Positions 18,818-54,837 of a stretch of 64,000 bases of DNA are shown one piece after another. The notes under the pieces are model-generated. The model searched no databases. It was not told the DNA's origin and saw only the letters and a list, made by a program, of their open reading frames with translations. How positions within the stretch are numbered: the stretch's first letter is position 1; every line of letters starts with the position of its first letter. A program made the translations under genes and the position numbers. Origin of the DNA: Tetrapyrgos nigripes (Eukaryota; Basidiomycota; Agaricomycetes; Agaricales; Campanellaceae); NCBI GenBank assembly GCA_013368315.1, contig JAACJM010000104.1, positions 186,001 through 250,000 of the forward strand, in the 5' to 3' direction.

Positions 18818-20214
18818 TTCTCTCAAATCAACGTTAGCATAGACTACATATCTCGTTAGCTTGGACTACATATCGTTGCAGCAACACTCAGGGAGACTTG
18901 AAGAAGAAAAGACGATGGAGCTTCCGAGTCAGTGGGAGGTCAAATAACCCCAAATTAGGGTCAGCAGAGCTAGGGTGTGAAACCTTTCCAACGGACTTCG
19001 CCCTTTTCTTCTCAAAGTACTAAAAGTGTCCAATTGTTCTCCAGGATACAAGGCCATAAGTCTGTAGGTCGTCATAAAAGTTAAAAAGTTAAAGAACCAG
19101 GTGCAGTAAGAAAGAGAATGCTAAAAGAGAAGGGACGCGTGCCGGGAACAGGGAGGAATGACAGAAAGAGTGTAAGTGTAAGTTGCTCACCTTGCTTAAC
19201 CTGCATAATTTAGTGTAAGTGTGACTTAGACAGTGTAAGTAGTTTTGATGCAAGAACCTCAAAAGAGTGTAAGTGCAACGGCTCCCGGGGATAAGCGGAG
19301 GCGCATCAAACGTTGATCAAACGTCATCAAGGCGCTCATATCCAAATCGGGAATGTATATTCTTGGGCTCCGCCATGTCCACTGCAATGTCTTTTGCCCT
19401 TGTCTTCTCCCACAGATATCCATTTTGGCAGGCTCTTTGAGGTCTTATCTCGATGGTATAGAGCAATAGACTTTCTCTGAGTCAGCAGTGCCGATCGAGG
19501 ACTATGCGATGTCCTTTTGACCTGTTCTCACGCCCTCCTGGGTGGTGAACAGTATGCACATGGCAACTGGCTCCTCTGTGTAAACGTGCAAATAAAACTG
19601 AAGTATTTAAGTACATACTCGGAATCTTGTCTATGTAGTTTTCATGAATATAATTAATTCCTTCACTCCATAGGCTTCTACTGGTTCTTTTCCTCTCGCG
19701 GCGAGACCCTTCAGCAAGAATATTTTTCTTGTCTACTTCCTTACGGCCAGTAGTCACATTGAATGAGGATAGACAGTTCTCTTCTTTAGTGTTGCCATCA
19801 GCTGTGTCGTTGTCTGTGGATTGTGATGGTGCAGGTAAGAATGTGAAGTCCCTCCAATCACCCCAGTAATGGGCTTCCTCTTGCGTTTCAATGACCGGAG
19901 GCATCCGTGCGTTGTTGTCTGAGTAATCGGGCCTAAATCAGAGGTCACTGAAAGTCCGCATTAAGAAAAATATACACGTGCCAGTATGATGGTGTATGAG
20001 TACTACTTGACAATTGATCATTCAAGTACACGCCAAAATCTACCAGTTGAGATAAGATAAGTGGCTTAACAAAGGCAAAATTACTTATTTGAACATACTG
20101 TTCTCTTGAAGTAATTCAGCTCGAAGCATGCTCAAATCACTGTAAGTTGGATCATAGCTTGAATCTACGACACAAGCAGCATAAACAGGAACACAGGATT
20201 GTTTAATTGTATAA
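18818..20214. other. Region between coiled-coil gene and transposase pseudogene
   Basis: It holds a cluster of GTGTAAGT words (19170-19274) and an open stretch at 19482-19904 (minus). The latter encodes MPPVIETQEEAHYWGDWRDF followed by an acidic, then basic segment (SRRERKRTSRSLW). This could be 3' exons of the transposase gene at 20215-23496 if the last intron was missed, or a separate small gene. No other feature is visible. Confidence 0.4.
19170..19274 (+). repeat. Cluster of GTGTAAGT words, left flank of the transposase gene
   Basis: GTGTAAGT occurs at 19170, 19176, 19213, 19233 and 19267, five times in about 105 bases. The inverse word ACTTACAC is clustered at 24422-24483 beyond the other end of the transposase gene. 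Subterminal repeats in opposite orientation at the two ends are typical transposase-binding sites, so this may mark one end of the element. No exact terminal inverted repeat was resolved. Confidence 0.45.
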
Positions 20215-23200
20215 TTACTTAAGTTTCCATGGCAGCTGAAATTGTATTTGCGACTGGATCATCGAGGTCAATGAATTTTCATGATCTTGCGGCATAGCCT
20301 CAGGCTCATCCTCAAACAATCTGACAGATTCCGAGTTGAAATCGGTCTCTATCATTTTAAATTCTATTGGCACAAACATTAAGGCAATAAATATAAAAGC
20401 GTACCAGGTTCAACATCGAACGATATAAGTTGCATGATCGCTTCCGAGTCGACTTCATTCAAATTTGAAGGATGGGCGGAGACTAAAATATACAAGTAAG
20501 AGACAAAGACTTAAATGCAAATACTAAATCGCACATACCAGGCTCATTTTCAAAAGGTGGCGTAAGTGCTTTACTGTTACTGGAGACTGAAGTGAAATCA
20601 AAATTCAAAAAGATGCGATGGTCAGTGATTGGGAGACTTCCAAAGTCAAAAGAATCAATACCTTCAGCTTCAGGTACCCTGACTCGCCTCCCATTAATTT
20701 TTACCCCCTTTAGATTAGCAAACTCCTTCAAACGATCAATGTCTCGTTTGAGCTCTTGCTGCTGCTTGTAAAGCCCACTCCGTAAAGCAGTTTCTTGCTT
20801 CACTGCTTCAGATAAATCTCTGAACTGTTGTGATTGATCAGTGGTTCGTTCAGTCTGGGTAATGGCTCGAATGGAAGTCAGGATGTTTTCGTGGGCCCTT
20901 TGTCGCTGTAAGGATTCCTGTCTTTTCTCACTGTACTTGTCATACTCGGACTTCATGTCCTGCAAAGCTTCAATCTTCGCATCGCGATTTTGGCGCTTCT
21001 GTGTAGTCCAGAGTCTACGCTGAGACAAAAGTTTCTCTCTATGTGCAGCAGTATTCTGTTGTGATGCTAAAAGTCCAGATGCTTCCATGAGCCGAAATTC
21101 TTCCACTTTTTCGTTGTCGCGTCGCCTTGCCCTTGATTCAGTAAATGAGTATATATAAGCATGTATTGTCATAAACAAAAAAGATCCTTACTCGAGTACA
21201 GCTTCTACCAATGTTTTTTGAATGCCAGTCTCTGCATTTCGAGCTGCATGGGCGCCTTCCACCATATTAGAATTATCGGATGTCAGATCCCATGCTTCAC
21301 CATTCATTTTTGAGAGGTAGCGATTGAATGCGGGCAAGAGCCATGAATGCAATTATTTTTGCGCATACCAATCTGACAAACGGACATTAGGGGTAAGAAT
21401 TTGAACACAGATCAAAGACTAGGAATACAGGCTCACTCTGAAGTGAAGGATCAGAATGATTCTGACAAAATTCATGCCATATTTGAATCTCTTCATCAGT
21501 TTTGAGACCTCGAAAGGATTTAAGACGCTGTATATCATCTTTGGATACTGCTGCTGAGAGCTTGTCGATGTTCCTGGTCAAGCATGCAATAATTAAGTGA
21601 TAAAGAAGAAAACACAATTTTAATGATCAACTTGCCACTCGTAATGAACACCGCACAGTTTGAGAACATGCAAGACGATTTCCGATGGATAATCAGTGCT
21701 AATCCCACTCAATGCTGGATTATTGAGCTTGAGGAGGAAGTCTCCGAGACCCAAAGCCTGTGCAGGTTCACTATCAAGAATAATTGCGAGTATATTACCA
21801 TCAGGCAGGTTGAGAGCTTGGAACTTGAGTGAAGATCCTGTGGTAGATCGGACAGCTTCATCCAACTCAGTAAATAGATTAAAAAAAGCTGTCCTTTCAA
21901 ATGAATTGCAATACAGACTTGTGAGTATGAACCCTACAAAATAAAATAAAACAATTTGAACAATGGTGGAGATCATGGTGGAGATACTTACTGCGGCTGT
22001 ATCAATCGGAATAGGCCACAACTTCCCATTCATTAAACTCCTCAGAGGCAACACGCTTGAATGTCGAACTTTGTGTACAAGGGGAGCGAGACCAGAATGC
22101 ATAGTCACTGCGACCTTTATGTGGCCCCGGCAGATCACTGAGTGAATATAACACTCTGATGCTTCGAGTTTGGAGTCATGCTGCTCAAACTCATACACCA
22201 GTCCTAGTAGGATTAATCAGTCTCTCAGGCTGACAAAGAACAATAAAGAATTAATACCATCCCAGTGTAGGCCCTTCGGAAATCGTTCTGCTTTGACATT
22301 GAGAATCTCCTGCCATATGAGTTGTTTATCAATAAATACGGGACTGCCTTGCGTAAGGGAGACTCCATCCTCTTCCACAATATTGGATGTTGTTTTGGCT
22401 AAAGAAAAACTGATAAGTTTGATAGACAGTGATTAGAAGCAGAGTGGAGAATTCACCATTCAAGAGACACCCTGGAGTCAAACCTACCACTCCTGCAGCA
22501 TTGATCATACACTGAATTCGGAGACGATCATCTTGCCCAGGCTTGATGTTCAGATGTACCAGGTGATTGTGAGCGTTCCGTAAAAGCACAAAAGCAAACC
22601 GAGTGCTATTATCAGCCGGAATGAACATGATCATTCTAGTGGGACATGGCCTTGGATTCATGTGTCCCTTCTGAGAGAAACCATCGACGACATGAGAAAA
22701 AGCTAGAGTCAATGAATAAATATTTTATTGAGATCAAGCAATACAATGTTCAATACTACTTACGACAGGAAGCTGCACGATGCTTTGGATGATTCACATT
22801 GCTACATTTGCCCTCCAAGACATCCACATCCGAACACGTTAATTTGCCACCACTCTGCACCATTCCCATAAACACATGAGGATCGATTTCAGAAGGAATC
22901 GGGAGCCACAGATGGTCGTAGTATTGCTTCTTGGACCATTTGTTACAGCCAATAAAGTACTCTGTCTCTTGTGTGCGAGCCTTGCCTTTGCTATCATTAC
23001 TGAGCTTCTGCGTGGCAGTACTTCAGTAATGAATTTTGATGCAAATAAAGCACATACAGCTTTCACCATGTGTACCTCAGCTTCGCCATCACATGAATCC
23101 AGCTTACATTTTGTAACCTTGACACGATTGTAAAATCTGCCAGTGGAACAACATCTCAAGAATTGTAGATATGTCAACGCACCTGACGTATTGAGCAGTG

Positions 23201-23496
23201 ACTGAATGAGCCTCAGCCTCTCATAAGTCCAGCTCCTTGCTCCAAATCTCCTGAGCCTGCGATCCCCGGGCGTGAGGGCAGACGTCTCCATGTAGCCCAT
23301 TGGCTGAACATCGTACTGCTCAACCAGGAATCCATGTTTTCAACATTAAAGAAGTCATCAAATGCAAGGTTTGGTGTCAAAAACTACGAAACCAAATTAA
23401 TATTGACTGTTTCCAAAGATTAAGTGAGCAGTAAGTAACACGTACAAAGTTTCTACACTCTTGGAGATCCTTCATCGAGGCATCCTCCATCAACAT
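20215..23496 (-). pseudogene. MULE-like transposase gene with two in-frame stops
   Basis: The gene starts MLMEDASMKDLQECRNF and uses short introns. It carries CKLDSCDGEAE, YFIGCNKWSKKQYYDHLWLP, then a C..H.H block (CPTRMIMF, LLRNAHNHLVHLNIKPGQDD) like the WRKY/GCM1-FLYWCH zinc fingers of MULE transposases. Next come STFKRVASEEFNEWEVVAYS and IILDSEPAQALGLGDFLLK (DDE-type core), then WLLPAFNRYLSKMNGEAWD and a 130-residue coiled coil (EKVEEFRLMEASG to LKRDIDRLKEF). Its GVKINGRRVRVP tail and acidic end stop at 20217. A TGA at 22002-22004 and a TAA at 21353-21355 interrupt exons that otherwise read well. The frame also shifts near the expected first catalytic Asp (about 22060) and possibly near 23330. 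It is therefore inactive. The family call is from motif recall. Confidence 0.65.
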
Positions 23497-23770
23497 CTGC
23501 TAGTGCCTGACTCTGGTCCCGGGATTGGTACTCTTGAACAAGATCAGCCCCATCCCTGGAGATCCAGTCAGTGTATTTGTTGATGGAAAGAAAGTGAGGA
23601 TTGTCCTTTGCAGAAAGATTTGAGTGGAAAACCTGGAAGAGTTACAATCAGTATATTGATAGTATGAGCAAATATGGCTCACAGATGCCCTATATCTTTT
23701 GACGAATGACAGAGGAAGTTCTGAGAGGTCCATTCTTCGAAGCTTAACAGACAGGTGGCTGAGTTCAGAC

Positions 23771-24015
23771 TGGGGCAAAGGGCCATCGCTTCGCGTGGCA
23801 AATTACGAGGCCCTTTCACGTAGTCCAACTCGGGTTATGCAGAAGAGAGGGCGTTAAGCAGACCGATTTGGCACGCTAGCATGACCTTGTCCTGGTCCAG
23901 ACCGAGTCTGGACATTCCGGTTGTCGGCAAGAGCAAAGACCGGTGGGATTTTGAGGTCGTGGTAAAATTTTTGAGGTCGACATAAGTTAACTCGGCCTTT
24001 AAGAGACCTCGTAAC
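23771..24015 (+). mobile_element. MITE-like element, TTACRAGGCC family, copy C
   Basis: The copy begins GGGCAAAGGGCCATCGCTTCG, continues to TTACGAGGCCC, and ends GGTCGACATAAGTTAACTC then ACCTCGTAACG. It lies between the 5' end of the transposase gene and the right-hand GTGTAAGT cluster, so it is probably nested in that element. No coding content. Confidence 0.5.
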
Positions 24016-24421
24016 GATACTTAAATAGCTTGTCTAAAATCGAGTCTGCATAGATATCGTGGCTGTCATAAGTATACTTAATACGGTTGTGGTTTTGAGG
24101 ATGTACCCAGTCCTACTACCACTGCGCACTGTGACTGGTGGCAAAATTATCTTCCCTATTTTTCAGGGAATTTTTACACGGCCAAATGCGGGAGGCAATG
24201 CAAAAGGAGCTGAATCAAACAAAAAATGATATGTGTCTATATGCAGTGCACTTGAAGTAACTAAAGGGAGCGGGCACAGTCCCCTGAGGGCAGGATTAGT
24301 GCTGACCCGAAGGCGGGACTATAAGCGATGGCGCAGGATCTCTAACCTTATTGGGATAATGATCCAAAGGGGTAGCGGGCCCCAGAAAGGCTGTACATGA
24401 ACGTGTTGCACTCTTGAGACT

Positions 24422-24483
24422 ACTTACACTCTTTAACAGAGAGAAAGTACTACTTACACTACTGAGTACTACTTACAGTTACA
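24422..24483 (-). repeat. Cluster of ACTTACAC words, right flank of the transposase gene
   Basis: ACTTACAC occurs at 24422 and 24452 and in the split form ACTTACAGTTACAC at 24470. These are the inverse of the GTGTAAGT cluster at 19170-19274. If both are subterminal sites, the decayed element spans roughly 19.15-24.5 kb. Confidence 0.4.
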
Positions 24484-24499
24484 CTATAATTGTATATAC

Positions 24500-25482
24500 T
24501 CGGGAACAGGGGGAAAATTTGACAAAAGTAGGTAGGTAAAGTAGGTAGGTAGATTGTAAACTTTGAGTATGTCGTAGACATGCTTCGCCGCCACTGAAAA
24601 AGCTCCTCCTCCACGATACAATGCAGCATAGCAGAGCTACATTGTCAGTGTGAGCACTATAGAAATTGCGAGGGCAGGCGTCTTAGAATGAGCATCCACC
24701 CAAGATCAGAGAAGGTCTTCGTTAGATCGTACAGATCAGATCGACATTCACCTACACCCAGCACCGTGCTGGGCATATCAGATTTGTGACTGCCTCTGTC
24801 ATCTTTGTCTCCTCATGGTCTTTTCCCACAACTCATGACACTATTCTTTTACGACTGTCGCGAGGTGAATAATCCCAATAAGAAACTCTCTCAGACAAAG
24901 GTAAGTCTGGGAAAAGCCTCTAAGTAGGAGAGTGGCACTGATCTAATGATTGCACAGCAAGATGCATCGAATAATCAAAACTGCGAGGACTTAGGAGGAT
25001 GAGGACGAAGATGGGCTTTCTGGGAAAGAACTGGATAGGCTGGACTTGGGTTGGCTTAGGCTTGGAGTTGGAATGTGAAGTTCTGGGGAGAATGACTTGG
25101 ATTTCTGGGTATAAGTACATACTCGTTATACTACTGGAGTTAGGTACATTACAGAAATATCTAGGAGGGAAAAGCGAGAGTGTAAGGTGTAAAAGAAACT
25201 CGAAACTTGCAAGAAAAAGACACCTGTCAAATAAGTAGAGCTGAAACTTAATAAAACTGAGTAAAAATGGGTAAGAAATGCAAATGTGTAAGAATTAGAC
25301 ATGATGAAGAGAAAACAAAATATGAGGATTGTCAGAGCTCATCCATAAGATGTTTGGGAGTGAAAGGATAATGAGAATTACGAAGACAAAAGAAAAACTG
25401 GCCAAAACTTACTAAGTAGAGGTTTGACAATAAGAAAATGTCTAGGGGAATCATGGACTTTGTGAAATCCTTGAATGTTGTA
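24500..25482. other. Gene-free stretch downstream of the recombinase-helicase gene
   Basis: No gene is supported. Short open frames on both strands lack homology and intron support. It must hold the polyadenylation region of the large minus-strand gene and perhaps one end of its element. I could not identify inverted or direct repeats that pair with sequence beyond 31.2 kb. Confidence 0.5.
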
Positions 25483-28400
25483 CTACAACGATAGCTCTAC
25501 GTACAACCGATAAAATGAATTAAGAAATTGTACGTGATTGGGAACATCAGTGACAGCTGTACATGGTTCCTGCAACCATTTCATAAAATCTGGGTATTTC
25601 AGCCAGGTGGCAACTCCGAGATGCTCAGCGATCTTTTTGACTTTTCTGCGATCTGTGTAAATGTGGGCTATTAATGTTGGAATAATAGTGGGAATAGAGG
25701 ACTCAAATGGGCAATCACTGGGTAATATTCTACCATTGCTTTTGGGAGCTGGGTGGGTAGAGAAATGTCGGTATGGCACCCAGCAATGATAACAAAATGC
25801 CCAATGAAGGCTCTTTGACATCTTGAGATTGGTCAACCGGTTGCGGTTGTTGGTGAACCCCTGAGGCTCGGCGTGGTTGATGGAATGGTCCTTGCGTGCG
25901 ACCCAGCAGGCTGGGCATCCAGAATCAACAACGCGCTGCAGTATACGGTCGAGTAGCTCTATCTCCTGTTTACAATGAGAATCGCCCTCAGCGATAGACT
26001 CAGAGGTAGAAGACACGGAGATGGGGGGGACAGAGACGTCAACAACAGGATTGGAAGGATTGGAAGGAATTTCAGCCTGAAGCGGTTGTTGGAGAGATAT
26101 AAAAGGGGGACCCTGGAGTGAATTAGTTGGCTAGACACAATTAGTGACAGGCATCATCATTCAAATGAGAAATACACACATCGAGACAGTTTTGGCAAAG
26201 TTCAGCCCCAATGGCTGCACAACAATGGACTTCACGGTCATAGGCATATTCAGAAAAACGCATGCACGATGGAGAGACCAGTAGCTGGTAATAGGGGATC
26301 CTGCCTTCCAAATCCTGCTCCGGGTTATCCGGAAGGAAGGGGAGACAACTGTAGAGCAGATGACAAAAAGCTAAAAGATCATCTCGTCCAGCACGCCCAA
26401 AATACTGCTTCAAAGGGGTCATGCCAAACGGTTCATAAACAATGACACAGCGAACAGCGCCGTAATCAATCCCCTCTCCAAAAGCAGGAGTGCAAACCAT
26501 CCAGAGTTTGCCTGGATCATATCCTCCTCTCCAATCACATTGAAACGCAGCCTTGTTTTGGGCAGTTTCGGCACTGTAGTAGGCAGGAATACCCAGCGCA
26601 GCACCAATATCCTTGCATAATTCAACAGAAGATACATATATCAATCCCCGTTCATCACTTTTAAGGGGATGGCGATCCATAAAATGTTTTATTGCTGAGA
26701 TGACAACAGAGCTGTTGGATGAGCTGAGCTTTTCAAGGGTGTAGCGGTGGTTGGGACGTCCACAATAAGATCGAATTTCAGTGACAAGAGTTTTTTCTTC
26801 AATACCCATCACCGAAAGGACGAAGTCGATGTCGTGAGGCCCAAGGGAGCCAGAAAGGAAAGAGAAGGGGACTTTTGTGGTGCGCAACTTGATTAGTGAG
26901 GCGAAGCATTCTCTAAAGTTGCTGTCGGTCTTAAGATGATGGGCTTCATCAATGAAAATACGGTCCAATCGCTTTGAAATCTCTAGGGAGTTTATCCACC
27001 GTCCAAAGGTGGCTGTTCCTGCTTCATGGGCTGAAACAAAGACAAGGGAGGTTGTGTGGGTATCAAAGTCTTGCGAGCCCCAAACACCTGCTTTGTATGC
27101 TGTGATGGCTTGGGCACGGCGGAGCATATCCTCTGTTAAGGAGATAAGGGGTAGGATCACAACAAACAAGCGGTCTGGCTTCAGCAAGGGTGCTGCAAAG
27201 AACTGGAGGGATTTGCCTTCCCCAGTGGAGAGAATGGAAAATACGTGATTGGAAGATAAGACAGAAGCCACAGACTCGGCTTGCTGAGGAGACCTCCAAG
27301 CCCATCGCTCTGATGGAATATTGGGGAAAAGGTTGCGCATAACGATGGGAAGGATATCCTTGGAGACAAATATGGGTGGGGAAGGTGAATGAGGATGGGG
27401 CTTGGTTCCCTTGATATCCTTCAGAATCTGGACACCAAGAGAGTTCAGAGCATCAATCATCCAAGCTTTGATGCGCTCTTCAGAGTGTATTATCGCTTGC
27501 TCGTGGAGTGTGGATTGCTTGGCAAGGAGTTCTTCCAAAGCAGCCTTGGCCGCCTCAGGAGACATGGGAACAGCAAAAGAGACATCCTAAAGATAAAACT
27601 GTCAGCAGAGGGAAACTCGAATAAGCAAAAACTGCGCACCAAGCCCTGGTGAGTCAGTTTGCGGAAGGAAGGATGAAGAAAGTCAATGGTTCTCTGCCAT
27701 CTGACCGCAGTTCTAAGCTGGGAAGCCACAAGATCTTGGGAGAGGTGTTTGGTGGCATTCTCGGACTGCACACCATAGGAAGTCTGGCCAACTATGGCAC
27801 TATGGGCTAGCATCTTATGGGTAGCACGGTCTTCCTCCTCTTCATCATCAGGTTCATCCCAGCTCACATTGGCCTTGTGGAGCATCAGGTTAGACTTGAG
27901 TTGTCGCCAGTCCCGCAGGAGGAGGGGATACCCAAGAGTTGACTCTGTGACGTTTCCAAGGACTTTGGAAAAGTCCTTCGAGGTCATTGGCTGGCCGTTG
28001 CGGACAAACATATAGAACATGTAATTGTCGAGGCACTCTTTTGGCATCCCTATCATGGCACCCAAGTGGGCTGCAGCATAGTAGATGCAGCCGATAACAA
28101 GGAGAACGAGACGACCAACTTGCCAAGGCATGGCTCGGGTAATGGCTTCGCCAGCTGTGCCTTGTTGACTGGCGGTTTTGCGGTAAACAGTCTCAAGGCA
28201 AAGATGTCCAGAAATGAAGTGAAGATTTTTCGGATGGTTGGGGTGGTTGGCGTAGGTCAGGGGTTCATTTTCTCTTCCACGAGCAGAACCTGGAGCTGTG
28301 GCATGTATGAGGTACCACATCATATTCACGACGTCTTGCACTAATCCAAACCATTCCTTGATGGTTTCTTCGAAAACCTTCGTCAGAATAGCGAGAGGGG

Positions 28401-31201
28401 CACAAGTGATGAAAGACTCACGATAGTTTGGATGAGTTACCCCTGCTACGCTCTTGAAAAAACGCTCATCACAAGCGAGATGATCACGGAGAATGGGGCG
28501 ATATTTGTCGATATCGTTAAGTTTTTCATCGAAGATGGAGTATCGATGATCATTGCAGGAGGTGGAATCGCGGAACCACTTTGCACACTGACCAGGGTCC
28601 GGGTCCATATGAGCGTCAAAGGAGTTAAGGATGTCTGTGTAGTTACATCCTTGAAATACAACGTCGATGGACTCTGTGAGACTGCCTAGACAGTCTTTCC
28701 AGGTGGTAAAGAGGCCCTTGGCAGATAACGGGAACCCATCTATAGAAATAACTTCATTGGAAGGGTCCCAGCTAAATCTTGCACGGGTCGGTTGATTGTA
28801 AGCCAGTTCAGAGAGCCGTTTTATATTTTCTCTGAGTTTGGTAAATGTGCTGGGCCTCCCATCTGTCAGCCAAGGTTGGACCAAGGTTTCGTAAGTACTG
28901 ATGATAAAAATTAGCAATTATCCAATACAATATATGAAAGGGAAAGACTCACTCAAACGCAACATTCCCAAATTCATGGCGCTTGCAGATGATTTCCCAA
29001 GCACCACTGGCTCTGAAGCACCACTGTGCCTTGATCAAGTTCGGTGGTAGTTGCTTCGCCGATGCAAATGCTCCATAATCATCTTGAATGTGGTAGGCGA
29101 CAACAAACCGTGTCAAGGGATCATTGAGCTCATCGTCGTGGTAGGCTTGATCAACACTTGTTACATATGTCCAGATGGCTCGATGAAAGAGCGTGATAAG
29201 TGCATCGTCGCTGGCGTCATCAACGTTTGAAGTTGATGCCTGTTCATGAAGTCTTTGGATGTGGAACTTTGTTATGTCTGTGAGGTAGATGGGGAAATTG
29301 TCGAGAGCTTTAGAAGTGTGCCGAAGAAGGAAGACAAGAAAAGTGCTGACAAAGTCAGCATCACGAGTAACCGTCCCTAGTTCTTGAGGACGGCGAAATG
29401 GAACACTTTTTAACGGGGTACTAAGAAAAGTTGGTGAGTAGAAAGAAAAGTGCAGAAAAGGAAACTCACTTCTGTGAGCTGGTCCGGATCCATCGGCGAG
29501 TTGTAGTATCAAGGGCATCCAATGACAGCATGACCTTTTGGTAATACAGTCGAGAAGTTTCTTTGATGCGACAGTATGCTCGTTCAGTTTCTGGATCTGG
29601 AGTGGCAGCTGATTTTCTCAAAAGACTGATATTGACAGCCTCAAGAATAAGATGCCAATGGAGCTGGGCAAATATTGGATTCAGATCGACAGAATTGGAG
29701 GGAGCAGAGTAGGTTTCAGAGGGAACGCCAAGTTTCAGCTCCTCTGCCTTCTTGATGATATCTCGGAGGATGTGATTTGCAGGTGGTGGAGTTTGGGGAG
29801 AGATAATCGGAATAAATTGTTGGTCACCCCGGAAGCCTTTGAGAGGATGGACGAGTATCCGATTCCTCACTCGTTTTTTGGGTAGAATGTGGGGGTGTAC
29901 ATCCCGAAAATGATTATCAAGGGATCCGCGGGTAGAACGAATCCCATTGCAGCCAGGATAACCACATTGAAATGCAGCCCGCTGTTCCATTCCAGGGACA
30001 GGCTCAATGGCGGTGAGTGTGGGAAAAGGTGTATATTGGTGAGCGTTGAGAACGATCAGGCATTTGAAGATCTCGGATTCGGAAGGTGTATTGTCTGGTG
30101 TATTACCTAGACGGGAAATTACTAGGTGTCTGCGAATATGGTTCTGATAAATCCTCGCCCAATGGACAGGGTGTCCACAGCTAATGCAAATACTCCACCT
30201 CCAAGTGGGATCCACAACAACGTCAACCTTTCGAAGGGTTTCAATAGCACACTGAGGGGAAGGTGCAGATGAAGAATTGAGGGAATATCTGGTGAGGAGG
30301 TCGTCCAAGACTTCGTCAGTAACTGGTCCTTCAGCTTCAAGGTCCTTCCACTCGGAAACCCAATAGTCATCAATATCATCCTCTGAGTCTCCCCCTTCAC
30401 TTCCATCTGCTTCCTCATCCCCTTCATCTCCCCCTTCAATTCCATCTGCTTCCTCCCCTTCACCTCGTTGGCCTGCATCCTCCACCTCATGTCTATCTGA
30501 GTCATCTCTAAGTCCTTCACTTCCGCCCATATCGTCATCGTAAAGGTTGTCTTCTAAGCCTCCAGTCTCTTCAACTCCTTCCATCTCGGTATCCACTTCT
30601 TGAGCTTCATGTCGTATTGAAAGTTCCTCTGCGTCTTCCATAGGGTAATCCTCGTCGTGGGCTGGAGACTTGTGTTCAGAAGGGAAAGGTTTTGTGGATT
30701 TTTTTTTTTTTGGATTTTTTCTGTTTGGGTCTCAGACCGCGAGCTCTGAGCTGTTGAGAATGACTGTCATTTACGACATATTCCAGAAGGTCTGGGTCCC
30801 ATTCCCACTCAGGAAACGGTTCTCGAAAACGTTCTTCTGTAAGATCCAGACTGTCATGGGGAGAGGTGCCCAGCACACGTTCGAACGCGTTACGATTGTA
30901 TTTGGAATGTTCGGTATCTCCACAAGGGCACTGCAGCAATCCATCTTTACGTTCACAACGTTTTGTTTCATTATCTACCAATTGTAAGGTCAGCAGGAGT
31001 GGAGAATACAAGGAGAAAAAAGAAGGGAGGGAAACACCTAAGAATGGTACTCTGTAACTGCGGGAGTTGTGATACCAGTTGTTGTGCTGTTTAGTGTCTT
31101 TGCCAACCTGGGGAAAACGACAACCTGGTGTTGTGCAGAAGAACCTGGAAGAGAAATCAGCAGATTGGAAAGTTGTCAACAAGAAGTACCTACTTTCCCA
31201 T
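25483..31201 (-). CDS. Zinc-finger / tyrosine-recombinase-like / RecQ-helicase fusion protein
   Basis: Seven exons (31201-31194, 31144-31038, 30974-29470, 29420-28953, 28897-27640, 27586-26180, 26112-25483) join at GT-AG sites. They total 5,383 bases, one more than a multiple of three; the extra base is in the A13 run at 30699-30711. Approximate residues: 1-75 two Cys/His units (CTTPGC, then CPCGDTEHS); 150-260 acidic; 301-320 and 375-398 C2H2 fingers (CISCGHPVHW...H...H; CGYPGC...HFRDVH). Residues 697-1100 end in a recombinase-like block with LLLRDWRQL and MLAHSAIVGQTSYGV, recalling the HxxR and GHS...Y boxes. Residues 1230-1515 form an SF2 core: STGEGKS, FIDEAHH, FLSGS, QYFGRAGRD. A RecQ-type Cys cluster follows (CMRF...CCAA...CQNC). 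The end holds GCPACW and CYHCWVP. It resembles telomere-linked helicases of fungi. Helicase confidence is high, recombinase moderate. Confidence 0.8.
30699..30711 (-). other. A13 homopolymer that breaks the reading frame
   Basis: On the coding strand thirteen adenines follow TCC in a Lys codon run. With thirteen the frame ends after KTFPF. The next domain is open in the frame that twelve adenines would give, and the rest of the spliced gene then stays open to 25483. Sequencing error, a true inactivating insertion, or tolerated slippage on the run are all possible. Confidence 0.75.
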
Positions 31202-31265
31202 GGTGAGTAGGTGAAAATAGACAAGTGAAAGCCAAAGCTAAGGAGTTACAAAGTAAACCCTGTGC

Positions 31266-31273
31266 TACTTATA
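31266..31273 (-). promoter_or_regulatory. TATA-like box of the recombinase-helicase gene
   Basis: TATAAGTA on the minus strand lies about 65-70 bases upstream of the ATG at 31201. The ATG has a good context (CACCATGGG). Position and sequence fit a core promoter. Confidence 0.4.
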
Positions 31274-31349
31274 CTCTAGGATGAGAGAGTTATATTTGCA
31301 ACACTGTGAAACTGCATACAGTTTCTCCGTAAGACTACGTATGGTTTTC

Positions 31350-31715
31350 ATGCATGAAACAGAAGGTATACCTGACTACATGCACAGCTTCCATGCATAG
31401 AACAGAAGGTATGCGGCGAAGGTATGTATACATGACTACATGCACCATGCACATGCATAGAATGGAAGGTATGCACGGTTTTCATGCATGAAACAGAAGG
31501 TACACACAATCTCTGACAGTTTCCATGTGTGAAACAGAAGGTATACCTGACTACATGCACAGCTTCCATGCATAGAACAGAAGGTACACGGCGAAGGTAT
31601 GTATACATGACTACATGCACATGCATAGAACGGAAGGTATGCACATGCATAGAACAGAAGGTATGCACAGTATCTGAAATTCTATGACATACAGTTTCCT
31701 CATGCAAAACAGAAA
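31350..31715. repeat. Minisatellite of ATGCATAGAACAGAAGGTA units
   Basis: Imperfect units with CATGCATAGAACAGAAGGTA or the variant CATGCATGAAACAGAAGGTA recur about every 40-60 bases, linked by TACATGACTACATGCAC. A longer 150-base unit is duplicated within it. The open frame on the minus strand is a by-product of the repeat. It lies upstream of the recombinase-helicase promoter. Confidence 0.6.
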
Positions 31716-31775
31716 GTATACGCGATCTGAAGCTAGGATGAGGCTAGAGTTACGAGGCTGAAGAATGAGGCTGAG

Positions 31776-31797
31776 ATAGATAGATAGATAGATAGAT
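31776..31797. repeat. GATA microsatellite
   Basis: Five tandem GATA units follow a GAGGCTGAGATA end of the TTACGAGGC repeat family. Confidence 0.8.
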
Positions 31798-31799
31798 AA

Positions 31800-34660
31800 T
31801 CCATGGCATGGTTCTCTATGTGTAGCCCACTACAGCGTACTAATAATAAGGATAAGATTCATTTGTATCAAGCCAAGTACTGTGCATGAATTGCTACTGA
31901 CCTTGAATTGATTGAGGCGTTGGGGCGTAGTCTCCATCACCGACCTGAAGGTATTATCTGCACATCCCAGTCAAAATGAAGGTTCTAAATCATGATTGCG
32001 ATGTTCCTGCCTGTATATCATAAAACGATCCTAGCCTTGACCGTGCACTCCATGACGTGGGTATCTCATAAAAAATGTGGTTGAACCACAAATCTAGTTT
32101 TTTTTAAATTGTCAGTTCAACCTGAGCGGTTTTATAAAAGTACACGCCAGATAACCACACCGCATCCACAGACACCCCCAGGGCTGGCATCCAAGTGAGT
32201 TGAGGCCCACATATGTTGGACCTTGGTCCATGGATGCATGACTGAGTAAGCAATGAACTGCAGGGGCGAACGAGGGCGAACATTGCCAGGGAATAGCGTA
32301 GTGCAAATTACGCAGTACATTATGTAGCTCAAATTACGAGCTCGAGTACATTGCGTAGTAGAGATTACCGTGTGCCTACGCCTACTATGTATATACAACT
32401 ACCCTGCCAGTACAAGCACCAAATGCTAGTTGGAATACAATTTTCTCGTCTGCTACTCACTGCGTCAGTAGGAGTCTGAAGAAAACAACCAGTAAAACTA
32501 GTAAAGGCGTACCTGGATGCAACATCCTCTGGCCTCATCATGCCTATATCCCCATATCCTCCGGCCACTGACTCCACCACTCTTTCGCAATGTGTTGGAG
32601 AAAATCGTCACGCTGAGCTTTATTTGTAAGGGTTAAAAGCTGATTGCAGTTGGCCTGAAGGATGTTGTTCTAGTCTTGAGTGTACTAACATGGCATTTCC
32701 AGATAGGTGAGGGATTGACAATGGATGACGGATTTGGTAGACAATGGCAGCAGGAGTGCACCAGGGCTGAGTCTGACTGCAGAGCTGTATGGAAATCTGG
32801 AACTTGAAGAACAAGAATTGAGAGAAGCGGAGGTGGAGAGGAGCAGAGTAGACAAAGAAGTAGCGTTGATGGGACACTGGTGGGGAACTGTAACGCGTAC
32901 TTCCTAATACAGACGACTATATAGTTTACATATCTATTCACACACCTTCTAGTATATAAGCCACACTCGTAGTACTTAGAACACTCGTAGTACTTAGAAT
33001 TATCATCTATATTTCTTACCACCGCCTGTCGTGCTTGTACCTAGGAACATTTATAAAACCTGTTCTGGCTTAGGTCTTGAGCATTGGGCTCGGTGAGAAT
33101 ACTTGATTACACACCTTACAGGAACTGACGTGTCAAGCTGCTGCATCACGTGTGCATTGACGCGTCGAGACATCGAGACGCGTTTGCGCTACATTGACGC
33201 GGAATATGTCATACTGCAAACACGCAACTTCAACGTGTTCAATTCCATAGACCAGCTATATATCTTGTGAGACTAAAAGATAAAAAACAGCCCCACATTC
33301 ACTACAACTAGGAATTTTTTGGTAGATTGAAAAATTTGGCTGCAGTGTGCACGTTTGAGCCATAGGGTCCATGGATTAGAAAGAGATGAGTATTTCTATC
33401 TAGAGCTTCTTCATCCCAATAGATAGCCACCAGCATTCTGATTAGGTGTATGATCAGAGAACTGCAGTGTACTGTGTGATTGATTTGTAGTAGATAGTTC
33501 TTGAATATATTTCCATCTACTACACCTTTACTCATTGCTCATTCCTTACTGGATATATTACACCATTGGGGGATAGTATTTACTCCCAGAAGCAACTCGG
33601 ACAGTTGAAATGTCCACAGAGAGTAAATGTCTGAAACTTTCACAATAGATTTCCCGCGCGTTTCCTCAGCGCTTAACGTGTCATCTCGGGCTCTGTGTCG
33701 ACTTGCGTTGAGTCCACAGGTATTTCTAGGCCTCGGAAAGACTCGGGATAGGCTTATTATATGTACTAACAGTCACCGAATATTTTTCGCTGCTATTATT
33801 TGAATGATAGACGATATACTTAGGTGTTAATCTAAAACAAATGGGCCACGGAAGGGATAGATTCCGATGGAAGTGTGGAGCTCGTGGAACAGGTCCACTA
33901 GCATGGACCAAAGGCATGCTGGTGGGTTAAGAGGGCGTGGGAGCTACCTGCTGGTTTTGTGGAGGGCCCTACTTTTTATAAAGCTGTCTAGGTTCATCCG
34001 ACCTTTTTACAAAATCATCTTTACGGTTCAACCTTTCAGATTTTATGAAATTTTGTAAAAAATGTGTGTTATGGCCTGGACCGTGAGTGGTTACAATGAG
34101 TGCCACGATAGAATGCTTGGCTTTAAGTGTTCAACTTCTTACAAATTTTTATTGTTGGGCTACAGGTTCTAAGTACTATTTACTAGTCAGCTCCCACAAA
34201 CTCTGGGAGTCGGGGAGGGCAAGCGCACCGTGCGAAGCACTAGTATAATTGGTTGGTTGGAGATATTGTAGCGTGGCGGCAGTGCCACTTGGTCCGTGCG
34301 CACTTGCCCCCGTTTTCCCTTCCCACTTACGCGTTCCTTCAATTCTTTCTCGTCATTTATCTTACTCACAATTTCAAGATTCCTTCTCTGATTCGTCCTT
34401 TCAACATATGAAAACCCTTATCAATTCTCTGATCACAAATACGTGTACTTGTAGCTCTTTATCGGGATGCGTGGTCACGTGACTGCGCCCCCTGCTGCCT
34501 CCCCTCCAAAACCCTACTCCACCGATGACTAAACTCTAGTTTGTGTTGTTCCACTCTTTGCAGGGGGATAGATGGTGGTCAATTCAGGATGTTTATTGGG
34601 TGGTTGAGTGGCTGTAGCAGAAATAACATTAAGTCCACTTTCACTGCATGTGGGAAAATA
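31800..34660. other. Gene-free stretch
   Basis: I see no supportable gene. Short frames at 32633-33022 and 33308-33535 (minus) lack start context, introns and family likeness. A short helical stretch at 32780-32860 (plus) reads ELYGNLELEEQELREAEVE and may be a coding remnant. Segments near 33160-33220 rich in GACGCG and CGAGACG may be MITE fragments. Confidence 0.5.
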
Positions 34661-34662
34661 CG

Positions 34663-34972
34663 TGTTGGGAGGAGTTTTAAGGCCCAAGTCAAAGTGGCTT
34701 GTAGGCATGGCCCTACAGGATGGTTTTCCTGTTTCTGTAGATCAAATGGAAGATACTGGCACCCCATGCAGACTGCGCGTAAGTCGACTAGGTATAGTCC
34801 GTGAGGGATACATTTTTGACACAGAAAAGAGCGAACTGGTCGAGTATGGGTGAAAGGAAGGGTCTGTGCTGTAATGGGGTGCAGAATCAAGTTTCTGCTG
34901 TCAAATGGAATGTACTGACGCCCTGCCAGGAGTGGGCACCATTGGGAATGGGACACAAAACCAGGTTGACGG
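34663..34972 (+). repeat. Dispersed 310-base repeat, copy 1
   Basis: This block, starting CGTGTTGGGAGGAGTTTTAA and ending CACAAAACCAGGTTGACGG, is almost identical to 38820-39132. Its single-base differences include T/C changes at the start and near CACCATTGG/CACCACTGG. It has no sustained coding frame beyond about 85 codons on either strand. The two copies bracket the hairpin arrays between them. Confidence 0.85.
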
Positions 34973-35217
34973 TTCGTATTCAATTCGGATGGTCTTAAAA
35001 CTCATGATTAGACTCAAAAAGCAAAGAAAACGATGAAAAAAGACATACTTTACGGAGATTTTTCATCACTGAGAGTTGAGTTGAGGAACTTGCTAGTTCC
35101 TAAGATCCTGACCGGTAGCCAGAGACTGCTGTCATCCGAAGACCGGTCTAGGATGTGATTTGAGAGCGAGGGCTGTCGTCGAGGTATTGGTAAGAGAGAG
35201 AGAAAGACTTGATGATG

Positions 35218-35241
35218 TAATTAACGCGATCGCGTTAATTA
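35218..35241. repeat. Perfect 24-base palindrome
   Basis: The palindrome has TTAACGCGATCGCGTTAA at its core, extended by three bases on each side with perfect symmetry. It stands alone between the 310-base repeat and the hairpin array. It could be a protein-binding site or a cruciform seed. Confidence 0.8.
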
Positions 35242-35479
35242 GACACGGTTTTACTTGCACGTATCTGCATACCTACATTGACGGATACATTAGATGTAGT
35301 CTCCGCCTTTGACGTTTCATGCATGTACACACATGGAACAAGGTGGAGATGCTAGGTACATCTATGTACCACATCTGAATGCTCAGAGACCAACTAATTT
35401 TTTTTGTGAAGAACGGCATCTGAATGCTCAAAGCGTCAATGCTAGATGTGCCTGGATACATACATGTACGCTCAAGTCG

Positions 35480-36610
35480 TACATGTATGTAACCCTAACC
35501 CACACTTTGAGCGTCCAGATGTGCGGACCAAGCAAACGGTCTGTGCACAGGACATCTGAACACCCAAAGCGTTCACGAATGTTTTGGGCGTACAGATGTG
35601 CAAGGACCAACCAAACGCTTTGGCGTTCTGAGTTGGTCCGTGCACAGGAAACATCCACACCACATTTGTACGCCCAAAGCGTTCACGGACGTTTTGGGCG
35701 TACAGATGTGCACGGACCAAGCAAACGCTTTGGGCGTTCTGACTTGGTCCGTGCACAGGACCACAGGACATCTGAACGCCCAAAGCGTTCACCGACGCTT
35801 TGGGCGTTCAGATGTGCACGGGCCAACCAAACGCTTTGGGCGTTCTGGGTTGGTCCATGCACAGGAAACACCCACACCGCATCTGTATGCCCAAAGCGTT
35901 CATGGACGCTTTGAGCGTACAGATGTGCACGGACCAACCAAACGCTTTGGGCGTTCTGGGTTGGTCCGTGCACAGGAAACACCCACACCGCATCTGTACG
36001 CCCAAAGCGTTCATGGACGCTTTGGGCGTACAGATGTGCACGGACCAAGCAAACGCTTTGGGCGTTCTGACTTGGTCCGTGCACAGGACCACAGGACATC
36101 TGAACGCCCAAAGCGTCGGTGAACGCTTTGAGCGTACAGATGTGCACGGACTAACCAAACGCTTTGGGCGTTCTGGGTTGGTCCGTGCACAGGAAACACC
36201 CACACTGCATCTGTACGCCCAAAGCGTTCATGGACGCTTTGAGCGTACAGATGTGCACGGACCAACCAAACGCTTTGGGCGTTCTGGGTTGGTCCATGCA
36301 CAGGAAACACCCACACTGCATCTGTACGCCCAAAGCGTACAGATGTGCACAGACCAAGCAAACGCTTTGGGCGTTCTGACTTGGTCCGTGCACAGGAAAC
36401 CACAGGACATCTGAACACCCAAAGCGTCAGTGAACACTTTGAGCGTACAGATGTGCACAGACCAACCAAACGCTTTGGGCGTTCTGGGTTGGTCCGTGCA
36501 CAGGAAACACCCACACCGCATCTGTACGCCCAGAGCGTTCATGGACGCTTTGGGCGTACAGATGTGCACGGACCAAGCAAACGCTCTAGGCGTTCTGACT
36601 TGGTCTGTGC
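35480..36610. repeat. Tandem hairpin array built on CAAACGCTTTGGGCGTTCTG
   Basis: About eleven units of 100-125 bases, each a hairpin. Unit type A has GGACCAACCAAACG...GGGTTGGTCCGTGCAC and a CCCACACCGCAT spacer. Type B has GGACCAAGCAAACG...GACTTGGTCCGTGCAC and a CCACAGGACAT spacer. Between them lies a second inverted pair, CTGTACGCCCAAAGCGTTCA...GACGCTTTGGGCGTACAG. The order is roughly B-A-B-A-A-B-A-A-B-A-B. The long open frames on both strands result from repetition without stops and are not taken as genes. Confidence 0.85.
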
Positions 36611-36639
36611 ACCAGACATCTTATGTGCTCTTTCACCCA

Positions 36640-37060
36640 ATGAGCATAAAAAGCGTGAACGATTGGTCGTTCACACAGAATAAATGAGAGTAAAATCGCG
36701 TGAACGACCAAGTCGTTCACGCAGATTCATAAGAGAAAAAAGGCGTGAACGACTTGGTCGTCCATGCAGATGAATGAGGAACAAGGTGTGAATGACCAAG
36801 TCGTTCACGCAGAATTAATGAGAAGAAAAAGGCGTGAACAACCAGGTCGTTCACACAGAATAAATGAGAGTAAAATTGCGTGAACGACCAAGTCGTTCAC
36901 ACAGATTCATGTGAGTAAAAAGGCGTAAACGACCAAGTCGTTCATGCAGATTCATGAGAGTAAAAAGGCATGAACAACTTAGTCGTCCACGCAGATGAAT
37001 GAGAGGAACAAGGCATGAACAACCAAGAAGTTCATGCAGATGTAAGTACTCTGCACGCAG
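36640..37060. repeat. Tandem array of GTGAACGACCAAGTCGTTCAC hairpins
   Basis: About nine short units of 40-50 bases, each with a self-complementary core such as GAACGACCAAGTCGTTC, are separated by AT-rich spacers (AGATTCATGAGAGTAAAAAG). Some units carry paired or unpaired changes. It directly follows the larger hairpin array. Confidence 0.8.
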
Positions 37061-37320
37061 CATGGACGACTTGAGCATCCAGCTGTGTGTCACTCAAATC
37101 TCAATCCTATCAATATAAGTACTCTGCACGCAGCATGAACAACTTGAGTGTCCAGCTGCGTGTCACTCAAAATCTCAATCCTATCAATATAAGTACTCTG
37201 CATGCAGCATGAACGACTTGAGCGTCCAGCTGCGTGTTACTCAAAATCTCAATCCTATCAATATAAGTACTCTGCATGCAGCATGAACGACTTGAGCGTC
37301 CAGCTGCGTGTTGGACTCCA
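37040..37320. repeat. Tandem array of about 78-base units
   Basis: Four units contain AATATAAGTACTCTGCA, GCAGCATGAACGACTTGAGCG and TCCAGCTGCGTGT. They share the GAACGACTTG word with the preceding hairpin array, suggesting a common origin. No coding signal. Confidence 0.8.
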
Positions 37321-37429
37321 ATCTCACAAAAAAAAATACTATCAATGTAAGTCAATGTCAGAAAAAAGTCTGCAGTAAATATACAATCAAGGTAAGTGCA
37401 GACACATCTCTCTCCTGTCTCTCCTCTCC

Positions 37430-37625
37430 CTCTCCCCTACCCCTCCTCTGCCCAAATCCTCCCCTTCCTCTACCCAAACCCTGCCCCACCCCTGCCCCTC
37501 CCCTACCCAAATCCTGCCCCTCCCCTACCCAAATCCTGCCCCTCCCCTACCCAAATCCTGCCCCTCCCCTGCCCAAATCCTGCCCCTCCCCTGCCCAAAT
37601 CCTGCCCCTCCCCTACCCCCCCTGG
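37430..37625. repeat. C-rich 22-base minisatellite, G-quadruplex potential
   Basis: The unit TGCCCCTCCCCTACCCAAATCC repeats with a 22-base period, well seen at 37490-37610, with shorter variants upstream. The minus strand carries runs of GGG and GGGG at short spacing, enough for G-quadruplexes. The CCCTACCC word is near the telomere repeat CCCTAA, which appears just after (AACCCTAGG, AATAACCCTAAAT). Confidence 0.8.
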
Positions 37626-37674
37626 GGTAGACCCCTACTCAAACCCTAGGATATCCTAATAACCCTAAATCTCT

Positions 37675-38550
37675 AATAATCACTTAGATCGTTTTTATGA
37701 AGTAATAAAGCCATTACTGATGCTAGGAAGTGGTCAGATGTGCTGGTCACCAGCACTGGAGTTGGTCGACTAACTTGGTCGACCAACTTTCTACACCTGC
37801 AAACAAAAACAAAAACATCTCTAATCATCACTGAGATAGTTTTTACAAAGTAATAAAGCCTCTACTGATGGTAGAAAGTGGTCAGATGTGCTGGTCGACC
37901 AGCACTGGAGTTGGTCGACAAGTCACGGGACTTGGTCGACTAACTTGGTCGACCAACTTTCTACACACTGAAAACTCAAATAAAAACATCTCTAATCATA
38001 ACTTATAGTTTTTATAAAGTAATAAAGCCATTACTGATGCTAGGAAGTGGTCAGACATCTTGGTCGACCAGGACTGGAGTTGGTCGACCAAGTCCCGTGA
38101 CTTGGTCGACTAACTTGGTCGACTAACTTGGTCGACCAACTTTCTACACACTGCAAACTCAAATAAAAACATCTCTAATCATAACTTATAGTTTTTATAA
38201 AGTAATAAAGCCATTACTGATGCTAGGAAGTGGTCAGACATCTTGGTCGACCAGGACTGGAGTTGGTCGACCAAGTCACGTGACCTGGTCGACTAACTTG
38301 GTCGACCAACTTTCTACACACTGCAAACTCAAATAAAAACATCTCTAATCATAACTTATAGTCTTTATAAAGTAATAAAGCCATATTACTGATGCTAGGA
38401 AGTGGTCAGACATCTTGGTCGACCAGGACTGGAGTTGGTCGACCAAGTCACGGGACTTGGTCGACTAACTTGGTCGACTAACTTGGTCGACTAACTTGGT
38501 CGACCAACTTTCTACACACTGCAAACTCACATAAAAGGTCTCTAATGAAC
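37675..38550. repeat. Tandem array with TTGGTCGACCAA palindromes
   Basis: Five units of about 165-185 bases begin ACATCTCTAATCATAACTTA and contain AGTAATAAAGCC, TGATGCTAGGAAGTGGTCAG, GGACTGGAGTTGGTCGACCA and AACTTTCTACACACTGCAAA. The palindromic word TTGGTCGACCAA and its variant CTTGGTCGACTAA occur in one to three tandem copies per unit, so the unit itself is expanding. A degenerate sixth unit ends near 38640. Confidence 0.85.
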
Positions 38551-38819
38551 CCTTAGATAGTTCTTATAGAGTAATTAAGATAATACTAAGGTTTTGAGCC
38601 CATGTTGGACCAACAGTTGGTCGACCAAGTCATCCGTGAGAAAACTTTTGACAGGTCTCCTGGTCATACCAAATCCTGTCTACTGGCCACAAACTATAAT
38701 TATATCAAAAACTAAGTATACCTGGTTCATCCCATGGACTATAGCTACCTGCTGATATCCACAAATGTCCCAATATTTTTTGCAAAATTTGTAAAGTGAC
38801 AGCACAGAACACTAAAATA

Positions 38820-39328: not shown

Positions 39329-40008
39329 AGGATTTCTCAGGAGGAGCATGGATTGGGGTTAGGGTTGGGGACTTAGTTATATGGTATCAACCCCCAGGAG
39401 TCCGAATCTTCAAGTTTTAAGGCAAACGGGGCAGCGGTTGTTGAGATAATCGCGAAACGACGCTGAAAAAGATGACATAATGGCCTGCAGACCAGGTACC
39501 CCAAAAAGTGCTCCCCCGGACCTGAGCCCGGAGCGCGCACAGCTTTCGAGGTCTGGGAATCTGAATCTGCAGTTTTTAGGACGAACGGATGAGCAGGGGA
39601 CGAGCAGTGTGCGGACCTTTGAAAAAAGCACCGATGTCCATTGTGGGAGCTAACCTATATATAGAACCAGGATTTCTCAGGAGGAGCATGGATTGGGGTT
39701 AGGGTTGGGGACTTAGTTATATGGTATCAACCCCCAGGAGTCCGAATCTTCAAGTTTTAAGGCAAACGGGGCAGCGGTTGTTGAGATAATCGCGAAACGA
39801 CGCTGAAAAAGATGACATAATGGCCTGCAGACCAGGTACCCCAAAAAGTGCTCCCCCGGACCTGAGCCCGGAGCGCGCCCAGCTTTCGAGGTCTGGGAAT
39901 CCGAATCTGCAGTTTTTAGGACGAACGGATGAGCAGGGGACGAGCAGTGTGCGGACCTTTGAAAAAAGCACCGATGTCCATTGTGGGAGCTAACCTATAT
40001 ATAGACAC
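39329..40008 (+). repeat. Tandem duplication of a 340-base unit with TATA box
   Basis: Two head-to-tail units start AGGATTTCTCAGGAGGAGCA and end GGGAGCTAACCTATATATAG, differing at only a few bases. Each carries GGGGTTAGGGTTGGGG and a CCTATATATAG TATA-like end. A third CCTATATATAG lies at about 41020. Head-to-tail units ending in a TATA box look like duplicated promoter modules of a mobile element. No coding frame spans them. Confidence 0.8.
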
Positions 40009-43960: not shown

Positions 43961-44791
43961 TCAATAAAGCCATTCCACTTCTTCAGATTGTTGAGTTGCA
44001 GTGACCTCATCCTCATCCTTATCCTTGCGACTCTGCAGCCTCGCATACCATCCAGGACTTGCCAACTGGTTTCCTGGAGGTTGACTGAAACACCACTCTT
44101 CTTCTTCTCCTTCTCCGTCTCCGTCTCCGTCTCCCTCTCCGTCTCTGTCTCCGTCTCTGTCTCCGTCTCCGTCTCCCTCTCCTTCTCCGTCTCCGTCTCC
44201 GTCTCCGTCTCCCTCTCCGTCTCCCTCTCCCTCTCTCTCTCCCTCTCCTTCTCCCTCTCCTTCTCCTTCTCCTTCTCCTTCTCCATCCTTTGTTTCGGTA
44301 GGAAACAGCACTTGCCAGCCATCCAGTGTGGCAGATTTAATAACTAGGTTCTCTTCTTCATCATCATCTGTCTCAGGAAACACAGCCCAGCTTTGCGATC
44401 CTTCCCATGCCACATCTATCTCTCGCCCCCCATGCGGATAGACATGCACATAATGGATCAGATACTTGTAGACCTCATCTAGGTGCTCTGGCTTGACGAC
44501 CAGTGGGTCAGCAACATAGTTCTTCATTGCCTCCTCCCGCTGCTGGGGCTCTAAACTGCAACCAACCAACTTAGGGTTACCACACTCAGAAGATAAAGAA
44601 AATCCTCACTAGTCCATATCTTTCTGGTCTACAACTAGCTCTCCACCAGATAGCTCCCAGAACCGGACAGCCACATTCTCCTCCATTTTCCCTTTCAAAA
44701 AGATTGGCAGCAAGTGATAGACCTCTGTCCGTGCATAGCCCCGCAGAGGGCCTTTGTACTGCTGGATGTGTGTTCTAACACAAGAGGTCAT
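43961..44791 (-). CDS. Small protein with an acidic Gly-Glu/Gly-Asp repeat
   Basis: Exon 1 begins MTSCVRTHIQQYKGPLRGYA in a good start context (ACCACCATG). A GTGAGG...TTGCAG intron, carrying AACCCTAAG, joins in phase to exon 2 (LEPQQREEAMKNYVADPLVV). The product has about 250 residues: an alpha/beta-looking N-terminal half (EVYHLLPIFLKGKMEENVAV, EVYKYLIHYVHVYPHGG), then a 60-residue stretch of alternating G with E or D encoded by a CTCCGT/CTCCCT hexamer. It ends EVEWLY. No family is recognised. It lies downstream of the ParB-like gene on the same strand and shares its intron style. An upstream exon could be missing. Confidence 0.55.
44098..44288. repeat. Coding hexamer microsatellite, (CTCCGT/CTCCCT/CTCCTT)n
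   Basis: About thirty hexamers encode alternating Gly-Glu and Gly-Asp on the minus strand. All six frames stay open across it, so the serine-rich and Lys-Glu-rich shadow frames carry no weight. Repeat number probably varies between strains. Confidence 0.9.
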
Positions 44792-53960: not shown

Positions 53961-53989
53961 TACAGCTTGCAACAGCAGAGGGTAGATAC

Positions 53990-54830: not shown

Positions 54831-54837
54831 TGCAGCA

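Follow-up and report, generated by a model that had tools for sequence, protein, structure and literature searches.

A predicted tyrosine recombinase-type domain joined to a RecQ-type helicase in a multicopy gene family of mushroom-forming fungi

The role of subtelomeric RecQ helicases in fungi is unsettled; the paper reportedly cited for them, from 1998, deals with the chromosome ends of Ustilago. In the accessible parts of the literature, such genes are described from Ustilago, with OrsD noted in UTASb (PMC10532341; PMC7593156), and from Mycosphaerella (PMC4522978), and a helicase is also borne by the fungal transposons AcademH and KolobokH (PMC10799480). Here we describe a gene on the minus strand (31201-25483) of a 64,000-nucleotide stretch of contig C101 (186001-250000; termed here the window) within the 98.5 Mb, 587-contig assembly of Tetrapyrgos nigripes, an agaric of the Campanellaceae and the source of the closest public proteins. 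Its OrsD-RecQ layout resembles that of telomere-linked helicases (TLHs). Between fingers and helicase, however, lies a block that, judged from structural models, very likely has the fold of tyrosine recombinases and type IB topoisomerases; by that predicted fold, the protein is a member of the DNA breaking-rejoining superfamily.

An AlphaFold model of the piece encoded by 28896-27640 (predicted local distance difference test, 76.8; predicted template modelling score, 0.76) was aligned structurally with VIA-align, and every row at ranks 1-30 was either a tyrosine recombinase or a type IB topoisomerase. Models built from two different sequences point to this one superfamily in all of their top rows (top 9 and top 30), and XerH, Cre and XerA score above the type IB topoisomerases. 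The check on a recombinase fold that had been suggested for this block from the sequence by itself thus came out in its favor, and the predicted catalytic domain is placed at 27655..28969 (minus strand). In the model, the candidate catalytic lysine lies between strands 231-238 and 250-255, and a short helix has the histidine just ahead of it and the tyrosine at its end.

Three homologue searches yielded 49 relatives of the protein (sixteen more rows, P0032-P0047, were excluded as helicase-only matches), all from mushroom-forming fungi: Tetrapyrgos, Lentinula, Collybiopsis, Rhodocollybia, Gymnopus, Marasmius, Moniliophthora, Stygiomarasmius, Lyophyllum, Tricholomella, Termitomyces and Suillus. 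Five residues of catalytic type, all encoded on the minus strand, are invariant wherever a relative has a residue at the position. Arg859 of box I (28279..28281; RGRE, i.e., R-x-x-E) and the beta-hairpin lysine, Lys893 (28177..28179), are each kept in 48 of 48 relatives, as is the Glu at +3 from the box I Arg; Arg984 of box II (27904..27906; within DWRQL, residues 982-986), His1018 of box III (27802..27804; within AHS, residues 1017-1019) and Tyr1027, the candidate nucleophile nine residues after His1018 (27775..27777), are each kept in 44 of 44. (Gapped rows are left out of these counts: P0002 at box I and the lysine, and five rows--differing fives--at each of the box II Arg, the His and the Tyr.) Of 400 columns scored, 18 are fully invariant, and the five residues of catalytic type are among them. 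Members of the family mostly read R-G-T/R-E, then GHS or NHS followed by the Tyr at nine residues from the His; Escherichia coli XerD, with R-V-S-E, G-H-S and a Tyr nine residues after the His (at positions that we take to be R148, H270 and Y279), has the same His-to-Tyr spacing, and the 91 residues from Lys893 to Arg984 presumably match those from K201 to R292 in Cre. The sequence-only reading had named loss of Arg, His or Tyr in homologues as evidence against itself, and no such loss was seen where the residues are present; it had also taken DWR and HS..YG together as recalling box II, of which DWR does hold the box II Arg, but HS..YG is the third box, with its His and Tyr. The recombinase domain is likely to be catalytically competent.

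Several observations weigh against this assignment. The HxxR form of box II is not found: a His three residues before Arg984 occurs in 0 of the 44 relatives, which carry Arg, Ser, Ala, Gln, Leu or Trp there, and thus, of the R, HxxR and Y to which the sequence-only reading had looked for conservation, the Arg and Tyr hold but the box II His does not. Because this His is missing in all 44, the block is filed by fold, outside the strict tyrosine recombinase family. Sequence profiles of known recombinases likewise fail to detect the block. Pfam Phage_integrase (PF00589) has no match either in 26 scanned rows at E<=1 (one of them a piece of the window protein that stops short of the OrsD region) or in the whole window protein at E<=0.1. 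In the same 26 rows neither GCR1_C (CryptonF) nor DUF3435 (Starship captain) matches, these being what we take to be the Pfam models for Crypton and Starship proteins, and GCR1_C is unmatched in the whole window protein as well. No Pfam recombinase model matched, and the protein is placed outside the Cryptons, the Starships and PF00589. Foldseek, given the predicted models, returned no significant match, and model confidence is low near the His and Tyr (piece residues 348-353 and 373-381). The missing profile support, the Foldseek result and the low confidence at these two residues are also what favors an accidental likeness, i.e., a helical domain with chance motifs; such an accident is nonetheless very improbable, given that the models of two sequences agree on one superfamily in all of the top VIA-align rows and given the spacing and invariance of the residues. 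It is improbable, too, that the fold has been kept in a type IB topoisomerase-like nickase or a DNA-binding module that performs no two-site recombination: the structural alignment ranks XerH, Cre and XerA higher, and the remaining catalytic residues, the Tyr included, are invariant. Domesticated Crypton genes, by contrast, are stated in the consulted portion of their description to have lost most of the catalytic tetrad (PMC3212892).

The spliced translation of the gene (25483..31201) comprises 1756 residues with zero internal stops. Its exons are 31201-31194, 31144-31038, 30974-30738, 30661-29470 and 29420-28953 (exons 1-5) and 28897-28422, 28367-27640, 27586-26180 and 26130-25483 (exons 6-9); this model, which is based on consensus splice sites and on relatives, thus has nine exons in place of the seven first counted. 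All introns are GT..AG, and both GT and AG are kept for 8 of 8 introns in two close paralogous copies. The break of frame at 'one homopolymer base' that had been reported also disappears, since the A-run sits inside a 76-base GT..AG intron (30737-30662); an annotated protein, P0001, which represents a close copy (99% identity over the searched region), is spliced identically and reads ..LRARAHNEDYP.. across it. The 54-base intron 28421-28368 corresponds to an 18-residue stretch that has no counterpart in aligned relatives of other species; in the annotated proteins P0001 and P0002, which represent close copies, this intron is translated.

From its N-terminus the protein consists of Cys/His units at residues 6-28 (31069..31137) and 54-66 (30892..30930), an acidic tract at residues 120-225 (30339..30656), two C2H2-like, OrsD-like fingers at residues 276 and 350 (29898..30188), the block that profiles leave unmatched, a RecQ-type helicase core, a Cys cluster and a C-terminal Cys/His region, all on the minus strand. 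The parts named in the sequence-only reading are all there, in the order and over the span that it gave; to these is added the C-terminal region (GCPACW..H..FCYHCW, residues 1612-1660; 25759..25920), which is present in full-length relatives and for which a Pfam scan of the whole protein gave nothing above cut-off. The finger region is defined by alignment with relatives that match PF12013 (OrsD): among the 26 scanned rows, OrsD is matched by 22, DEAD by 21 and Helicase_C by 19, and the window protein itself has no match to PF12013 at E<=0.1. Because 49 relatives align to it, the gene with its parts is not a product of chance.

The superfamily 2, RecQ-type helicase core (26378..27289, minus strand) is recognized both by Pfam and by its motifs, STGEGKS (residue 1192), DEAH (1285) and GRAGRD (1469). 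The window protein matches PF00270 (4.5e-10) and PF04851 (1.4e-5), while its matches to PF00271 (6.3e-4) and DUF7560 (0.014) fall under their cut-offs; TIGR01389 (recQ) is matched by 7 of 10 alignment rows (best, 9.4e-36), the window's row in that scan being the recombinase piece only. A Cys cluster, CMRF..HCC..ELCQNC (26186..26260, minus strand; ELCQNC at residue 1534), follows the helicase, and the RQC, zinc-binding and HRDC models (PF09382, PF16124, PF00570) have no match in the window protein at E<=0.1. The recombinase block and helicase are almost certainly encoded in one chain, as the sequence-only reading had it. One might instead suppose that two neighboring genes have been fused by annotation, for an intron (27639-27587) parts the two halves in the window gene, and 10 of the 49 relatives, two Marasmius oreades proteins among them, have no annotated helicase domain. 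That intron, however, is short, of consensus form and kept in both paralogues, the frame continues across it, and the other 39 gene models, from many species, carry both halves with an annotated helicase Pfam domain, which leaves an artefact scarcely credible. The two Marasmius oreades proteins (P0062 and P0064) have fingers and a recombinase block, and either lost the helicase or come from split gene models; P0064 also stops before the Tyr box.

A midpoint-rooted tree was built from 45 of 50 rows, the other five covering too little of the block. Both of its main groups include Collybiopsis confluens and Lentinula edodes; Lentinula contributes many close rows, some of which may be alleles of different strains. 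T. nigripes itself has five loci, on contigs C101 (the window), C138, C164, C321 and C130. The pieces on C138 and C164 are 79-100% identical to P0001; those on C321 are 36-54% and those on C130 43-59% identical, with several stops, some perhaps intronic. The close copies are broken: on C138 a stop interrupts the finger region and most of the 3' end is missing, and on C164 the acidic tract contains a stop, the 3' end is missing and a 419-base deletion takes out the Lys893, Arg984 and His1018 codons; in both, the last exon is out of frame relative to the window. About 20 kb around the gene is common to the window and C164 at ~97% identity, reflecting either allelic contigs or a segmental duplication. 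Elsewhere in this genome there are OrsD matches beyond the five helicase loci (C140:51317 and C53:5623) and open reading frames with weak Phage_integrase matches below cut-off (L043, L047 and L048, at C148:39005, C37:323389 and C179:107502), which are possibly other eukaryotic tyrosine recombinases.

Such a gene might serve its host, that is, as a TLH-like helicase whose active recombinase domain is used in telomere or subtelomere maintenance recombination and moves no element. As far as the available text of the sources goes, the UTAS/TLH genes of Ustilago maydis are composed of OrsD and RecQ-type helicase sequences (PMC10532341), and RecQ genes are subtelomeric in Agaricus bisporus (PMC7473861) and Ganoderma (PMC10817607). 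Between copies, moreover, the ratio of non-synonymous to synonymous rates (dN/dS) lies below 1, although the counts of changes are small: window versus C138, 0.28 for the recombinase (10 synonymous, 10 non-synonymous changes) and 0.19 for the helicase (8 and 5); window versus C164, 0.28 (12 and 12) and 0.54 (5 and 9); and, for the whole gene, 0.56 (C138) and 0.37 (C164). Also in keeping with a host role is a dispersed repeat beside the gene (32900..34974, plus strand), found whole or in part on at least 23 contigs, a lower bound since 40 of 114 candidates were scored (two of these contigs by a long terminal repeat (LTR)-like end only). TTAGGG arrays of five or more units occur on seven contigs, and only on C5, C89 and C195 are they terminal; on C5 and C195 the distance between the repeat and the terminal array is 12 and 16 kb. 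Presence on two of the three terminal-array contigs has a hypergeometric p of 0.0043 (0.0036 without the LTR-only contigs), and presence on three of all seven, four of whose arrays are non-terminal, a p of 0.0017 (0.0013). Yet the copies decay; the window copy is 78 kb from its contig end, where no telomere was seen; and strains of A. bisporus var. bisporus are described, in the part of the source at hand, as being without the subtelomeric RecQ genes of var. burnettii (PMC7473861). A purely host-serving role is on these grounds rather unlikely.

What we regard as the somewhat more probable reading is that the gene family is a selfish element that multiplies and rearranges its own DNA, which is probably subtelomeric. 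In the proposed mechanism, the fingers and the domain ahead of the catalytic block would hold specific DNA sites; Tyr1027, aided by Arg859, Lys893, Arg984 and His1018, would attack the phosphodiester; strands would be exchanged via a Holliday junction; and the fused helicase would open or migrate that junction. Possible binding sites, as far as the sequence suggests, are the units of a CATGCAT(A/G)(A/G)AAC(A/G)GAAGG array upstream of the start codon (31336..31721, plus strand), of which there are six in the window, five in each of two other close copies and none in the searched stretches around the two distant copies. The protein may bring about movement or rearrangement of DNA near chromosome ends.

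Element ends were sought by comparing 24001-25483 with 31202-32900, which have no common word of 12 or more bases in either orientation (Crypton repeats are shorter), and an empty site among three gene-free loci that carry the 32900-34974 repeat and differ near it by LTR-type sequence; none was found. The flank 31230-32880 occurs at full length only on C101, C138 and C164 and otherwise has two short partial matches, and the flank 24503-25450 only on C101 and C164 among the 40 of 756 candidates scored. Within the latter, parts of 24600-25448 have partial matches elsewhere (66-100%), the longest of which (80% and 76%) stop at 25448; hence the gene seems to be bordered at its 3' end by a further small repeat, a diverged one at 24856-25448 (68-80% matches on other contigs, two ending at 25448). 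Mobility is thus something that we infer, and the 'integration and unwinding machine' of the sequence-only reading with it. With the conserved active-site residues of a recombinase on their chain, such helicases gain a concrete, testable biochemical activity, which would help explain the multiple copies, the polymorphism and the repeat-rich setting of their genes.

The surroundings of the gene include further repeats. A dispersed repeat of ~5.35 kb (19153-24502) has copies on many contigs, among the 40 of 756 candidates scored, that end at the same bases (on C37 with 98-100% identity in the searched parts); its ends are AGTGTAA(G/C)TGTAAGT inverted repeats with CGGGAACAGG at both sides, which suggests that a DNA transposon was active here recently and duplicated 9-10 bases of its target. 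At 32889-33120 there is a 232-base repeat, probably a solo LTR, that stands alone in the window, flanks a 2.6 kb insert on C138 and is absent from C164. Several satellite families, of which one has a palindromic unit, lie side by side at 35546-38510 within a stretch (34975-38813) that is missing from C138 and C164 between matching flanks; the similarity of both contigs to the window stops at 39329-40005, where two copies of a 340-base unit contain GGGGTTAGGGTTGGGG. Farther away are a weak, TrAA12-like match under the family cut-off (43964-44605, minus strand) and ~9.3 kb of a GC-rich 149-base satellite, broken by a 34-base repeat (51607-60883).

To our knowledge, this would be the first tyrosine recombinase fused to a RecQ helicase; a literature search for a tyrosine recombinase paired with a telomere-linked helicase or subtelomeric RecQ turned up a paper on Trypanosoma but nothing relevant among the papers listed, most subscription journals being outside its scope. 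Overall, the protein would act as a tyrosine recombinase and a RecQ helicase combined. With tyrosine recombinases (XerH, XerD, Cre and integrases) and type IB topoisomerases it has in common the predicted catalytic fold, R-x-x-E, the beta-hairpin Lys, the box II Arg and GHS-x7-Y; it departs from them in the missing box II His, in a longer, acidic stretch between boxes II and III, in its fusion to fingers and a helicase and in being unmatched by PF00589. Cryptons and Starships (DUF3435) would be similar in being eukaryotic mobile elements that use a tyrosine recombinase; in the Crypton paper the word 'helicase' is absent (PMC3212892). Ustilago UTASa/b and TLH helicases have the OrsD-type fingers, the RecQ-type core, several copies and repeat-rich surroundings, and are set apart by description, in that no recombinase domain is mentioned in the portions of their descriptions consulted, nor is one named in those on the RecQ genes of Agaricus bisporus, Mycosphaerella and Ganoderma; no Ustilago, Magnaporthe or fission-yeast TLH proteins were among the matches of the three homologue searches. 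AcademH and KolobokH use DDE-type transposases, as opposed to the tyrosine recombinase here. (The abstract on KolobokP, for its part, gives DDD/E.) What they would have in common with the present family, in the text available, is that they are fungal transposons with a helicase (PMC10799480). We tentatively raise the possibility that the fungal OrsD-RecQ telomere-linked helicases as a whole are tyrosine recombinase-helicase transposases--a subtelomere-dwelling mobile superfamily that cuts, exchanges and unwinds DNA, and that would be the recombinase counterpart of AcademH and KolobokH.

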